A stretch of DNA of 64,000 bases from Streptomyces sp. NBC_00457 (GTDB taxonomy: Bacteria; Actinomycetota; Actinomycetes; Streptomycetales; Streptomycetaceae). Below, one piece after another: positions 58,875 to 62,080 of this stretch. Below the pieces are notes generated by a model. The model saw only the letters and a list, made by a program, of their open reading frames with translations. It was not told where the DNA came from and made no database searches. Numbering within the stretch: the stretch's first letter is position 1; each line of letters opens with the position of its first letter. The DNA lies in NCBI RefSeq assembly GCF_036014015.1, contig NZ_CP107905.1:7502001-7566000 (forward strand). Reading direction: 5' to 3'. A program made the position numbers and the translations under genes.

Positions 58875-59519
58875 TCAGCAGCCGGACAGGTAGTTCGTCA
58901 GCGCGCTCTTCTCGGCGGAGTCGACCGAGAGGTCGTAGTAGTACTTCACCTGGACCCAGGCGCGGACGTAGGTGCAGCGGTACGAGGAGACCGACGGCAT
59001 CCAGGTGGCCGGGTCCTGGTCGCCCTTGGACTGGTTGACGTTGTCCGTGACCGCGATGAGCTGCGGGCGGGTCAGGTCGTTGGCGAAGGACTGGCGGCGG
59101 GAGGTGGTCCAGCTGTCGGCACCGGAGTCCCAGGCCTCGGCCAGCGGAACGAGGTGGTCGATGTCGACGTCGGAGGCGGCGGTCCAGGTGGCGCCGTCGT
59201 AGGGGGAGGCCCAGCGGCCGCTGGTGGCGGCGCAGGAGGAGTCCTGGACGACGTTCGTGCCGTCGCGCTTCAGGACGACCTCGCGGGTGTTGCAGGCGCC
59301 GGACTGGGTGATCCAGTGGGGGAACAGATCACGGTTGTACCCGGTGCGGTCCTCGGTGGTGACGGTGAGCTGGGCGAGGTAGCTGCGCGCGGTGGCGCCG
59401 CTGACGGGGGTGGGGAGGGCGGCGGAGGCGGTCGGGCCGTTGAACAGCCCGACCGAGGCTATGAGTCCGGTGAAAGCCGCGAGTATGCTGAGGCGTCGAC
59501 GCGCGTAGAACTTCGGCAT
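58875..59519 (-). CDS. Secreted HNH endonuclease family protein
   Basis: 214 residues. A signal peptide (M-P-K-F-Y-A-R-R-R-L) ends near A-S-A-A at 31-34. The nuclease motif is D-I-D-H-L-V-P-L-A-E-A-W, with the partner N-x-x-K-x-x-x-D/x in N-V-N-Q-S-K-G-D-Q-D-P. Two pairs of cysteines suggest disulphides. It is the GmrSD/HNH (DUF1524)-type extracellular nuclease common in Streptomyces, probably for DNA scavenging. Confidence 0.9.
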   Translation of the reverse strand: MPKFYARRRLSILAAFTGLIASVGLFNGPTASAALPTPVSGATARSYLAQLTVTTEDRTGYNRDLFPHWITQSGACNTREVVLKRDGTNVVQDSSCAATSGRWASPYDGATWTAASDVDIDHLVPLAEAWDSGADSWTTSRRQSFANDLTRPQLIAVTDNVNQSKGDQDPATWMPSVSSYRCTYVRAWVQVKYYYDLSVDSAEKSALTNYLSGC

Positions 59520-59697
59520 GCGAACTCCCTTGGGTCGTGGGGGTGTTGGGCGCGAGCGAGGACATGCTCGCGACGCCGTGTTGCGTTCGGGTGTTCGTTC
59601 GGTAAGAAGCTAGTGACGTGCGCATGACACATCAAGGTTGAGAGCGGAACTTTCTGGTCCGTTGGTGGTCCCGGGCGACGAATGGCACCCCCTTGCC

Positions 59698-59772
59698 GGG
59701 AACGAGAGTTCCCTCTTCGAATGCGTGACCTTTGGGTGTAGTGCTCGTTGGGTGCGGGTGAGGGGATCTTCG
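59698..59772 (+). mobile_element. Left-end sequence of the IS1341-type element
   Basis: A perfect hairpin GGGAAC-GAGA-GTTCCC (59698-59713) is followed by TCGAATGCGTGACCTTT (59717-59733), GTTGGGTGCG and GGATCTTCGG, the same order as before the other tnpB at 35272-35345. The element appears to begin near 59694-59698. Confidence 0.65.
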
Positions 59773-59788
59773 GACCGGGGGGTGTCGA

Positions 59789-61252
59789 GTGAGCGGGAAG
59801 TTCCGGCCACGGCCCGGTTTCGTGGTGCAGGCCTACAAGTTCGCTCTCGATCCGAACGCCGGGCAGGAGCAGGCGCTGCGCTCGCACTGCGGTGCCGCTC
59901 GCGCCGCCTACAACTGGGCCGTGTCGTGGGTGACTGCCTCGTGGTGGCAGCGCAAGGCCGAAGCCTCCTACGCAATCGGTGAGGAGGAGTTGACGCCGTG
60001 GCGGTCGTGGTCGCTGCCTGCGCTGCGCAAGGAGTTCAACAGGGTCAAGACCACCGACCCGAGATTCGCGGACTGGTAGGAGGAGAACTCCAAGGAGGCC
60101 TACAGCACCGGCCTCGCGAACGCAGCTGCCGCGTTCGACAACTACGCCAAGTCCAAACAGGGCAAACGCAAGGGCGGCCGGGTGGGTGTCCCGCGCCGGA
60201 AGCCGAAGCGGAAAGCCCGCCTGACCTGCCGGTTCACCACCGGCACGATCCGCGTCGAACGGGACGGCCGACATGTCACTCTTCCTCGGCTGGGCGCAAT
60301 CCGTACCCACGAACCCACGATCAAGCTCCTGACCTGCATCCAGCCCGGCATAGCGCGTATCTTGTCCGCGACCGTCCGGTACGAGCGGGGGCGTTGGTTT
60401 GTCTCCTTCCAGGTGGAGACCGTCCGTGAGATCACCCGCGTGGCCCGGCCGGATGTCGCAGTCGGGATCGACCTGGGCGTCAAGCACCCGGCAGTCCTGG
60501 CCGACAGTTTCGGCGAGATCGGCTACGTGCCGAACCCCAAGCACCTGGACGGCAGCCTCAAGCTGCTCAGGTTCCACTCCCGCCGGGCCTCCCGGCGGCA
60601 GGGACCGGACCGCAGGACCGGCCAGAAGCCGTCGAAACGGTGGGAGAAGGCCAACGCCGAGCGCAACAAGATCCACCACCGGGTGGCAAACCTGCGCACC
60701 GACGCGCTGCACAGACTCACCGCCCGCGTACGCGCCGAGTACGGCACCGTCGTGGTCGAAGACCTCAACGTCGCCGGCATGCTCCGTAACAAGCGGCTCG
60801 CCCGCCGCGTGGCCGATGCCGGGTTCGGGGAAATCCGGCGCCAGCTCTCCTACAAGGGCCGACGCAATGCCTGCCGCACCGTCGTGGCGGGCCGCTGGTA
60901 TCCCAGTTCAAAGACCTGCTCGGACTGCGGCGCGGTGAAAGCCAAGCTGCCGCTGCACGTCCGAGTCTTCACCTGCGACGCCTGCGGCCTGGTCATGGAC
61001 CGGGACGAGAACGCGGCCCGCAACCTGGTCGCCCGCGTGGCGGCCGTCACCACTGGTACCGGAGTGGCCGGAGACCAGGACACGCCACGCGTGTCGAAGC
61101 CCCGTGGAGCCGACCGTAAGACTCGCCGCCAACGCCTCGGCCGGAACACCGGCCGAGGCGGGCGGGCAGGTGGCGCAAGCCTGCCGCACCCGCGGCAGAA
61201 GGAAACGGGAGACCGTCGTCAGGACACCGAAGCGCAACTCGCGCTCTGGTGA
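59789..61252 (+). pseudogene. tnpB: TnpB (IS1341-type RNA-guided nuclease family) interrupted by one in-frame amber codon
   Basis: One continuous frame of 487 codons from a GTG at 59789, with a single TAG at 60077-60079 (codon 97) where the run F-A-D-W-stop-E-E-N-S-K-E-A-Y suggests a lost Trp (TGG to TAG). Beyond it, all RuvC residues are intact: Asp228 (V-G-I-D-L-G-V-K), Glu324 (V-V-V-E-D-L-N-V) and Asp406 (M-D-R-D-E-N-A-A-R-N). The zinc finger C-S-D-C-G ... C-D-A-C-G is also intact. No tnpA is present. Restart at 60182 would give a protein lacking the N-terminal domain. Confidence 0.88.
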
Positions 61253-61293
61253 CACCGTCACGGACCTTCCAGACGGAAACGCCTGGGATGCTG

Positions 61294-61317
61294 AAAGTCA
61301 CTGAGACTTTGAGTAAC
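61294..61317 (+). mobile_element. Right-end hairpin of the IS1341-type element
   Basis: A perfect 6-bp hairpin AAAGTC-ACTGA-GACTTT (61294-61310) lies 42 bases past the tnpB stop and is followed by GAGTAAC. Subterminal right-end hairpins are the rule in this IS family. The element's end should lie at about 61314-61317. Confidence 0.6.
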
Positions 61318-61409
61318 GGAGTAGCTCTTCGCCGGAACCTCAGCTCGTCTGAGCCGGAGCCCGGAGGCTAGCCTCATGCGTGAGGCTAGCCGGCGAGACC
61401 TTCGGCAAG
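61315..61409 (+). promoter_or_regulatory. yybP-ykoY-type manganese riboswitch, 5' strand of P1 interrupted
   Basis: GGAGTAGC at 61318-61325 corresponds to the conserved 5' GGGGAGUAGC. A GC-rich two-hairpin body ends in a perfect 11-bp hairpin (61366-61376/61381-61391). GCGAGACCTTCGGCAAG (61393-61409) corresponds to the 3' GCAAGACCUUU. The gene downstream, TMEM165/GDT1, is a typical target. A further stable hairpin near 61408-61431 lies before the start codon. Assigned from memory of the consensus; no covariance search was run. Confidence 0.65.
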
Positions 61410-61498
61410 CAGTGCACCGACCGTGCGCTGCCGTGCCGGGGTGTCTTCGCAGGATGTGCAGCACTCTCGGTGGGGCAGCCCCGACCGATTGAGGAACC

Positions 61499-62080
61499 TT
61501 GATCAGCTTGACCGTGACGGCCGTCGTGTTCGGCGTCGTCTTCCTCGCCGAACTGCCGGACAAGACCGCACTCGCCGGGCTCGTCCTCGGCACCCGTTAT
61601 CGCGCCTCGTACGTCTTCGCCGGCGTCGCCGCCGCGTTCGCGCTGCATGTCGCGCTCGCCGTGGCGGCCGGCAGTGTGCTGACGCTGCTGCCGCAGCAGA
61701 TCCTGCATGCCCTGACCGGCGTGCTCTTCCTCGGTGGGGCGGCCGTGCTGCTGATGAAGAAGGACGAGGACGAGGCGGAGGTCCGCAAGCCGGAGAACCA
61801 GACCTTCTGGAAGGTGTCCGGGGCCGGGTTCATGCTCATCCTGGTCGCCGAGTTCGGTGATCTGACGCAGATCATGACGGCGAATCTCGCCGCCCGGTAC
61901 GACGACCCGCTCTCTGTCGGGCTCGGTGCGGTGCTCGCGCTGTGGGCGGTCGCGGGGCTCGGCATCGTCGGTGGAAAGGCCCTGATGAAGCGGGTTCCGC
62001 TGGCGCTGATCACCAAGATCGCGGCGCTGCTGATGCTGGGGCTCGGGGTGTGGAGTCTCTGGGAAGCGGTGGCCGGGTGA
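61499..62080 (+). CDS. TMEM165/GDT1 (UPF0016) family manganese transporter
   Basis: 193 residues from a TTG at 61499 (GAGGAA upstream is close; in-frame TTG 61508 and GTG 61514 are alternatives). Six hydrophobic segments are seen, with two copies of the E-x-G-D-x-T family motif: E-L-P-D-K-T at 18-23, where the Gly is replaced by Pro, and E-F-G-D-L-T in the second half. This family exports Mn2+ or exchanges cations. The riboswitch just upstream supports Mn2+ control. Confidence 0.86.
   Translation: MISLTVTAVVFGVVFLAELPDKTALAGLVLGTRYRASYVFAGVAAAFALHVALAVAAGSVLTLLPQQILHALTGVLFLGGAAVLLMKKDEDEAEVRKPENQTFWKVSGAGFMLILVAEFGDLTQIMTANLAARYDDPLSVGLGAVLALWAVAGLGIVGGKALMKRVPLALITKIAALLMLGLGVWSLWEAVAG

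Follow-up and report, generated by a model that had tools for sequence, protein, structure and literature searches.

The DNA analysed here, referred to as the window, is a stretch of 64 kb from a single-contig chromosome (G000:C1:7502001-7566000). Its host is a Streptomyces, as judged by the named relatives of the gene that lies at the right end of the window, on the + strand at 61499..62080. This gene has a TTG start and encodes a protein of 193 aa that is recognised as a GDT1 (UPF0016) cation/proton antiporter (Pfam PF01169, 124.8 bits). Among the 392 genomes searched, the nearest shares 88% identity with the window across the part of the GDT1 region that was compared, and no empty-site strain of the same species is among them. 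The gene is preceded, on the same strand, by an expression platform, by the remnant of an aptamer that begins with GGAGTAGC, and by the remnant of a TnpB element, which adjoins GGAGTAGC on the left as had been noticed in the original prediction for this locus. A host flank lies to the left of the element.

The leader of the GDT1 gene

The GDT1 leader was sought in 138 loci by selecting on GGAGTAGC and the motif of loop L3, and 132 of them carry it, in 125 distinct forms; the six loci without a leader in this count are L017, L024, L027, L029, L030 and L119. A second selection, on GGAGTAGC and AGACCTTC and hence independent of the L3 motif, again returned a leader in 132/138 loci, and GTCGACAYACTG is present in all 132 leaders selected in this way, that is, L3 is lost in none of these relatives. 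Immediately 5' of GGAGTAGC, the distinct leaders, which do not hold the element, read GAAGG (123/125) or GGAGG (2/125). The GAAGG strand pairs with CCTTC to form helix P1.1, which GGGG links to loop L1, and a TANNNT hexamer is found at most 30 nt upstream of GGAGTAGC in 125/125 leaders. A covariance model, R1, was built from 60 of the 123 listed aptamers with a structure assigned by hand. In these 60 leaders the assigned structure (P1.1, P1.2, P3, P4) is paired in 97.5% of cells, with two-sided changes in 7/21 pairs; P1.1 is paired in 100% of cells but is nearly invariant, so that covariation neither supports nor refutes it. Longer leaders are present in S. ipomoeae (L084:2670-2836) and S. corallincola (L118:5726-5887), with matches of 167 and 162 nt that score 102.3 and 101.5 bits, respectively, and their extra length is probably an enlarged variable arm.

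As to the identity of this RNA, GGGGAGUAGC and GACAYACU (GACAUACU) are taken here to be landmarks of the Mn2+ riboswitch, and the motif GTCGACAYACTG (GACAYACU) is presumably its metal-binding loop L3. The leader is called Mn2+-riboswitch-like because GDT1 lies downstream, because it holds the landmarks GGGGAGUAGC, GACAYACU and GAGACC, and because its short P1.1 has an alternative pairing downstream; the identity is read from landmarks, gene and structure, as RF00080 scores even an intact Streptomyces leader far below its threshold. Indeed, GDT1 (PF01169) is a Mn2+ homeostasis gene, in keeping with the location of such a riboswitch. In particular, the leaders of the relatives resemble the yybP-ykoY Mn2+ riboswitch (RF00080) in that they precede a cation exporter gene, GDT1, and carry the landmarks GGGGAGUAGC, GACAUACU and AGCGAGACC, and in that the 3' strand of their short switch helix P1.1 is able to pair downstream instead. 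In the published architecture, GAGACC belongs to the 3' half of L1 and of P1.1 (PMC6754395), and P1.1 is described in two papers as the switch helix that Mn2+ stabilises in the Mn2+ riboswitches studied (PMC6754395, PMC11087558).

The leaders differ from RF00080 in their score. The Rfam search gave no RF00080 match in the window, and none at threshold in the 16 relatives searched, although 15 of these carry the leader intact; the leaders of L166 and L002-L016 are strongly conserved. In L166, the closest intact relative, RF00080 reaches 13.2 bits, far under the gathering threshold of 45, and the window leader departs further from the family as it is without the 5' strand of P1.1 and the L3 motif. 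A leader that is some other conserved RNA would account for these searches. We nevertheless consider this quite improbable: RF00080 has the lowest E-value among the five families listed for L166 (0.093, over model positions 51-81 of 177 only), GDT1 lies downstream, and GGGGAGUAGC, GACAUACU, GAGACC and the short P1.1 agree with the published architecture (PMC6754395 for GAGACC). The Rfam Mn2+ model in its present form hence seems to overlook the strongly conserved GDT1 leaders of Streptomyces, with 15 intact ones searched at threshold, which is probably a gap in the model. RF00080 on spliced and unspliced sequence had been proposed in the original prediction as a test of P1 and proved uninformative, without a threshold match even in the presence of 15 intact leaders, and our own model R1 was used for this purpose.

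In the window, the remnant of the aptamer recognised with R1 occupies 61318..61403 (+) and consists of GGAGTAGC (L1, 61318-61325), P1.2, P3, P4, AGACC and the 3' strand of P1.1, CCTTC (61399-61403), with no 5' strand of P1.1. It scores 63.0 bits (61304-61407), compared with 122.4-135.9 bits for 10 intact leaders outside the training set. The original prediction had placed CCTTCGGCAAG at 61399-61409, where it is indeed found, and had seen no good 5' partner for it directly upstream of GGAGTAGC. This is borne out by the R1 alignment of 61304-61407, in which 3/5 pairs of P1.1 are non-standard; in agreement with the missing 5' strand, the aptamer is no longer able to form P1.1. In addition, a deletion of 12 nt at 61338..61339 (+), visible in the alignments, removes GTCGACAYACTG, the motif taken as loop L3; in the R1 alignment the twelve deleted positions are GUCGACAUACUG.

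A search of 392 genomes for the exact leader in which GGAGTAGCTCTTCGCC is preceded by any base but G has two matches, the one described here and one in G163. The latter is an unrelated sequence and was discarded as a second disrupted leader; the pattern, being exact, is blind to leaders with variation within GGAGTAGCTCTTCGCC. In the window, the variable arm P4 (61366-61391) is a perfect 11-bp hairpin that includes TAGCCT (61369-61374); a TANNNT hexamer at leader positions 45-110 is found in 0/125 relatives.

The TnpB element and its insertion site

The element is the remnant of an IS607-type TnpB element of 1620 nt (59698..61317, +), delimited by homology to its closest copies, which begins at 59697/59698 and stops at 61319/61320. 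Sequences matching the element were found in 131 of 295 genomes of the genus, many of the matches being short. At the left end, three copies (L034, L035 and L061) share a further ~140 nt, starting with GGGCTGAC, that are absent in the window, where the element begins with a subterminal hairpin, GGGAACGAGAGTTCCC (59698..59713, +), similar to the left ends in other loci. In the same genome, this left-end hairpin motif is followed at another locus (L032, G000:C1:7322560-7322635 and downstream) by a different reading frame, which is open at the 3' end and for whose 492-aa product Pfam gives no match. The tnpB reading frame of the window (59789..61252, +) contains an in-frame stop (60077-60079) that is absent in 5/5 compared copies and splits the frame. 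With NCBIfam IS607_TnpB (NF038280, cut-off 350), the uninterrupted relative L035 scores 507.4 bits and the piece behind the stop in the window 348.9, just below the cut-off. Pfam applied to two + strand frames recognised TnpB domains only and no TnpA.

The right end of the element holds two hairpins (61267-61288 and 61289-61315, together 61267..61315, +), as seen in the folded alignment of 28 of the 29 right ends listed, window included; L057 was left out since it lies at a contig end. In this fold, 12/20 predicted pairs have at least one sequence that is changed on both sides with the pair kept, and the two hairpins are probably the scaffold of an omega-RNA, beside the guide. The 28 right ends are followed by GG in 27 cases and terminate with AAC in 25, with the window among both. 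The window element is like the IS607-family TnpB elements (NF038280) in its type of TnpB, in its insertion at GG and in a structured right end that runs straight into the flank, in the manner of an omega-RNA and its guide. It differs from them in the loss of ~140 nt of left end, in the interruption of tnpB and in that no tnpA was recognised in the two + strand frames tested.

The right junction is exact, with ..GTAAC joined to GGAGTAGC at 61318, so that GG at 61318..61319 (+) is the core common to the transposon end and the target. The empty site of copy L035 reads AAGG[GG]CACG in 3/5 compared loci (L211, L212, L214) and is slightly different in L208 and L209, and therefore indicates that this copy was inserted at GG. 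For copy L034 no readable empty site was obtained, as the loci in G009 and G053 that match its left flank share no homology with its right flank. According to a published study, IS607 TnpA inserts at GG, with (G)GG preferred (PMC6188088). The window junction, ..GTAAC|GG|AGTAGC, is what an insertion into GAAGG|GG|AGTAGC, the border between P1.1 and L1, would leave. The left junction has been lost, and the insertion is therefore legible from the right side only.

To the left of the element, the host flank at 59600..59673 (+) was recognised by eye as the counterpart of the sequence that precedes the riboswitch in G138 (L166) and in S. blattellae (L117, with L167 identical), to which it is homologous. 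The match with L117 and L167 ends at GGTCCCG and that with L166 at GGTCCGTTG; beyond these points the window departs from both. Comparison with the relatives further indicates that 24 nt (59674..59697, +) stand in place of their -10 box (TACGAT-like) and of the 5' strand of P1.1, GAAGG; these 24 nt may be decayed host sequence, a remnant of the left end of the element, or both. The pattern CCCCTTGCCGGGAACG.. has an exact match in this genome only among 382 genomes. With up to 3 mismatches, matches are found in 60 of the 382 genomes, a number close to that of the control (~55 control matches), and none of 30 loci examined from this search carries the left-end motif of the element.

The original prediction was that a TnpB element of ~1.62 kb had been inserted into the P1 stem, and this is backed by the 125 empty sites, the GG rule of IS607 and the exact right junction. 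It had further held that CTTGCCG, left of the hairpin, and AA at 61315-61316, after the element, are the two halves of the former 5' strand of P1, which would give an empty site of CTTGCCGGAGTAGC. The letters do exist and would pair with CGGCAAG, and the nine base pairs that had been counted are real as letters. As the former stem they fail, because the relatives read GAAGG or GGAGG, and CTTGCC within 90 nt upstream of GGAGTAGC is found in 0/125 distinct leaders, which is the outcome that the original prediction had itself named as refuting. The CTTGCCG lies at 59692-59698, one position to the right of where it had been placed, and its final G is the first base of the hairpin GGGAACGAGAGTTCCC (59698) and not host sequence, just as AA belongs to the right end of the element (AAC). 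Moreover, a count of 7-mers of the perfect partner CTTGCCGAAGG over the 64 kb of the window gives 75 on the + strand, or 1.17 per kb, from which the chance of finding one in the 58 nt before the hairpin is ~7% by arithmetic; the match of CTTGCCG is thus not more than expected by chance. Collectively, a strand split into these two halves is hardly credible. The original prediction also did not include that the left end of the element and the P1.1 strand of the host are missing rather than merely displaced, that the L3 motif is deleted and that tnpB itself is interrupted.

Expression platform, transcription and selection on the exporter

Between the aptamer and the gene, the expression platform (61399..61494, +) starts with the 3' strand of P1.1, which can pair with GCCGGGG downstream, and has kept CTCTCGGT and ACCGATTGAGG around the ribosome-binding site. 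A competitor helix of 7 bp is possible in 123/125 leaders compared with 128/500 shuffles, and folding indicates that the P1.1 3' strand of the window is still able to form it. A clear ON state with P1.1 formed was expected, and the folding test speaks against it. Indeed, in the 110 of 125 leaders that entered this test (the other 15 did not fit the start-site pattern), the ribosome-binding GAGG has a mean unpaired value of 0.22, which is the same with P1.1 forced or with its 5' strand barred from pairing, and GAGG is more unpaired with P1.1 forced in 44/110 leaders. No sign of an effect on expression is therefore claimed. Judged from the sequence, the window leader has presumably lost its control by Mn2+, again with no direction claimed.

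In parallel, the GDT1 gene is intact and still under purifying selection. When the window gene is compared with 11 relatives, dN/dS averages 0.126, and among the relatives themselves 0.139 (L167 was left out because of its length), so that it is not raised in the window. This selection indicates that the exporter is probably still in use, by means of a promoter that the scan did not find. In the window, no TANNNT hexamer is found in the 30 nt before the left hairpin of the element. The locus may have been re-wired, in such a way that the GDT1 leader now takes its 5' part from the right end of the element, with omega-RNA and GDT1 mRNA on one transcript and a leader that works anew, e.g., constitutively. 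The purifying selection on GDT1 and the platform kept at the ribosome-binding site are consistent with this, and omega-RNAs of TnpB elements generally extend into the flank. We regard this arrangement as doubtful: a scan of 59400-61520, limited to the E. coli-like sigma-70 consensus, returned no promoter-like site, and the only TANNNT hexamer in 61318-61517, at 61369-61374, has no good -35 by eye.

Proposed course of events

All in all, the locus very probably records the insertion of an IS607-type element into the Mn2+-riboswitch-like leader of GDT1, with the outcome of a dead riboswitch behind a dead transposon and of a selected exporter that is transcribed from elsewhere. The empty ancestor site, if insertion came first, would have read ..GCAGAAGGGGAGTAGC.. 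with an intact L3, and an IS607-type TnpB element would have inserted at the GGGG between the switch helix P1.1 and loop L1. Deletion or decay would then have taken the -10 box, the P1.1 5' strand of the host and the left part of the element, the probable metal-binding loop L3 would have been lost by the 12-nt deletion, and tnpB would have gained its stop. What would result is a non-functional riboswitch remnant and a non-functional transposon before a selected exporter gene, with GDT1 transcribed from elsewhere, either from a new promoter or by read-through.

The same remnants would also be produced in the reverse order, if the riboswitch decayed first and the element was later inserted as a passenger into a dead leader. 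The loss of the -10 box together with that of the L3 motif probably took more than one event, and their order is illegible from one genome. This course is unlikely in our judgement, considering that GGAGTAGC is otherwise intact and has the element precisely at its GG, that the expression platform, the ribosome-binding site and the gene are conserved, and that none of the 132 leaders from relatives has lost L3.

Insertions of IS elements that break the leader or the promoter of a conserved gene are of a general kind, to which the window case is alike. It is set apart by its target, which is the exact boundary between P1.1 and L1 of a metal-riboswitch-like RNA and coincides with the GG target of the element. 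The locus illustrates that the P1/L1 boundary of a Mn2+-riboswitch-like RNA, with its GGGG, is open to attack by a transposon that targets GG. As an apparent natural knock-out of a metal riboswitch with the gene kept, it would make it possible to ask what value the riboswitch has for the cell and how the exporter is controlled without it. Among the matches listed in a literature search, covering titles and the starts of abstracts, no paper was found on the Streptomyces GDT1 leader, nor on a Mn2+ riboswitch interrupted by a TnpB or IS element.

The bases that follow the right end are GGAGTAGCTCTTCGCCGG (GGAGUAGCUCUUCGCCGG), identical in 109/125 leaders. Going by their position, the omega-RNA of the intact ancestor might have had the riboswitch core GGAGUAGCUCUUCGCCGG as its guide, so that nearly all Streptomyces would have offered an empty leader for TnpB to recognise, and GDT1 was perhaps re-wired later via the right-end RNA; this proposal is tentative and on balance not favoured. 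The exact disrupted leader is found in no other of the 392 genomes, which argues against a spread by the guide route.

Two further observations concern other genomes. In Streptomyces sp. TRM68416 (L119:5791-5908), GGAGTAGC and the 5' strand of P1.1 are replaced by unrelated sequence, with a model score of 84.4 bits. This is possibly a second, independent loss of the Mn2+-riboswitch-like leader; Pfam on six frames returned no transposase there, and only a weak HTH_3 just under the cut-off. The genome G022 (L011, L061, L167) has a left host flank that matches that of the window well, together with an empty GDT1 leader, and carries partial copies of the same TnpB element elsewhere, at contig ends, with 88-89% identity.
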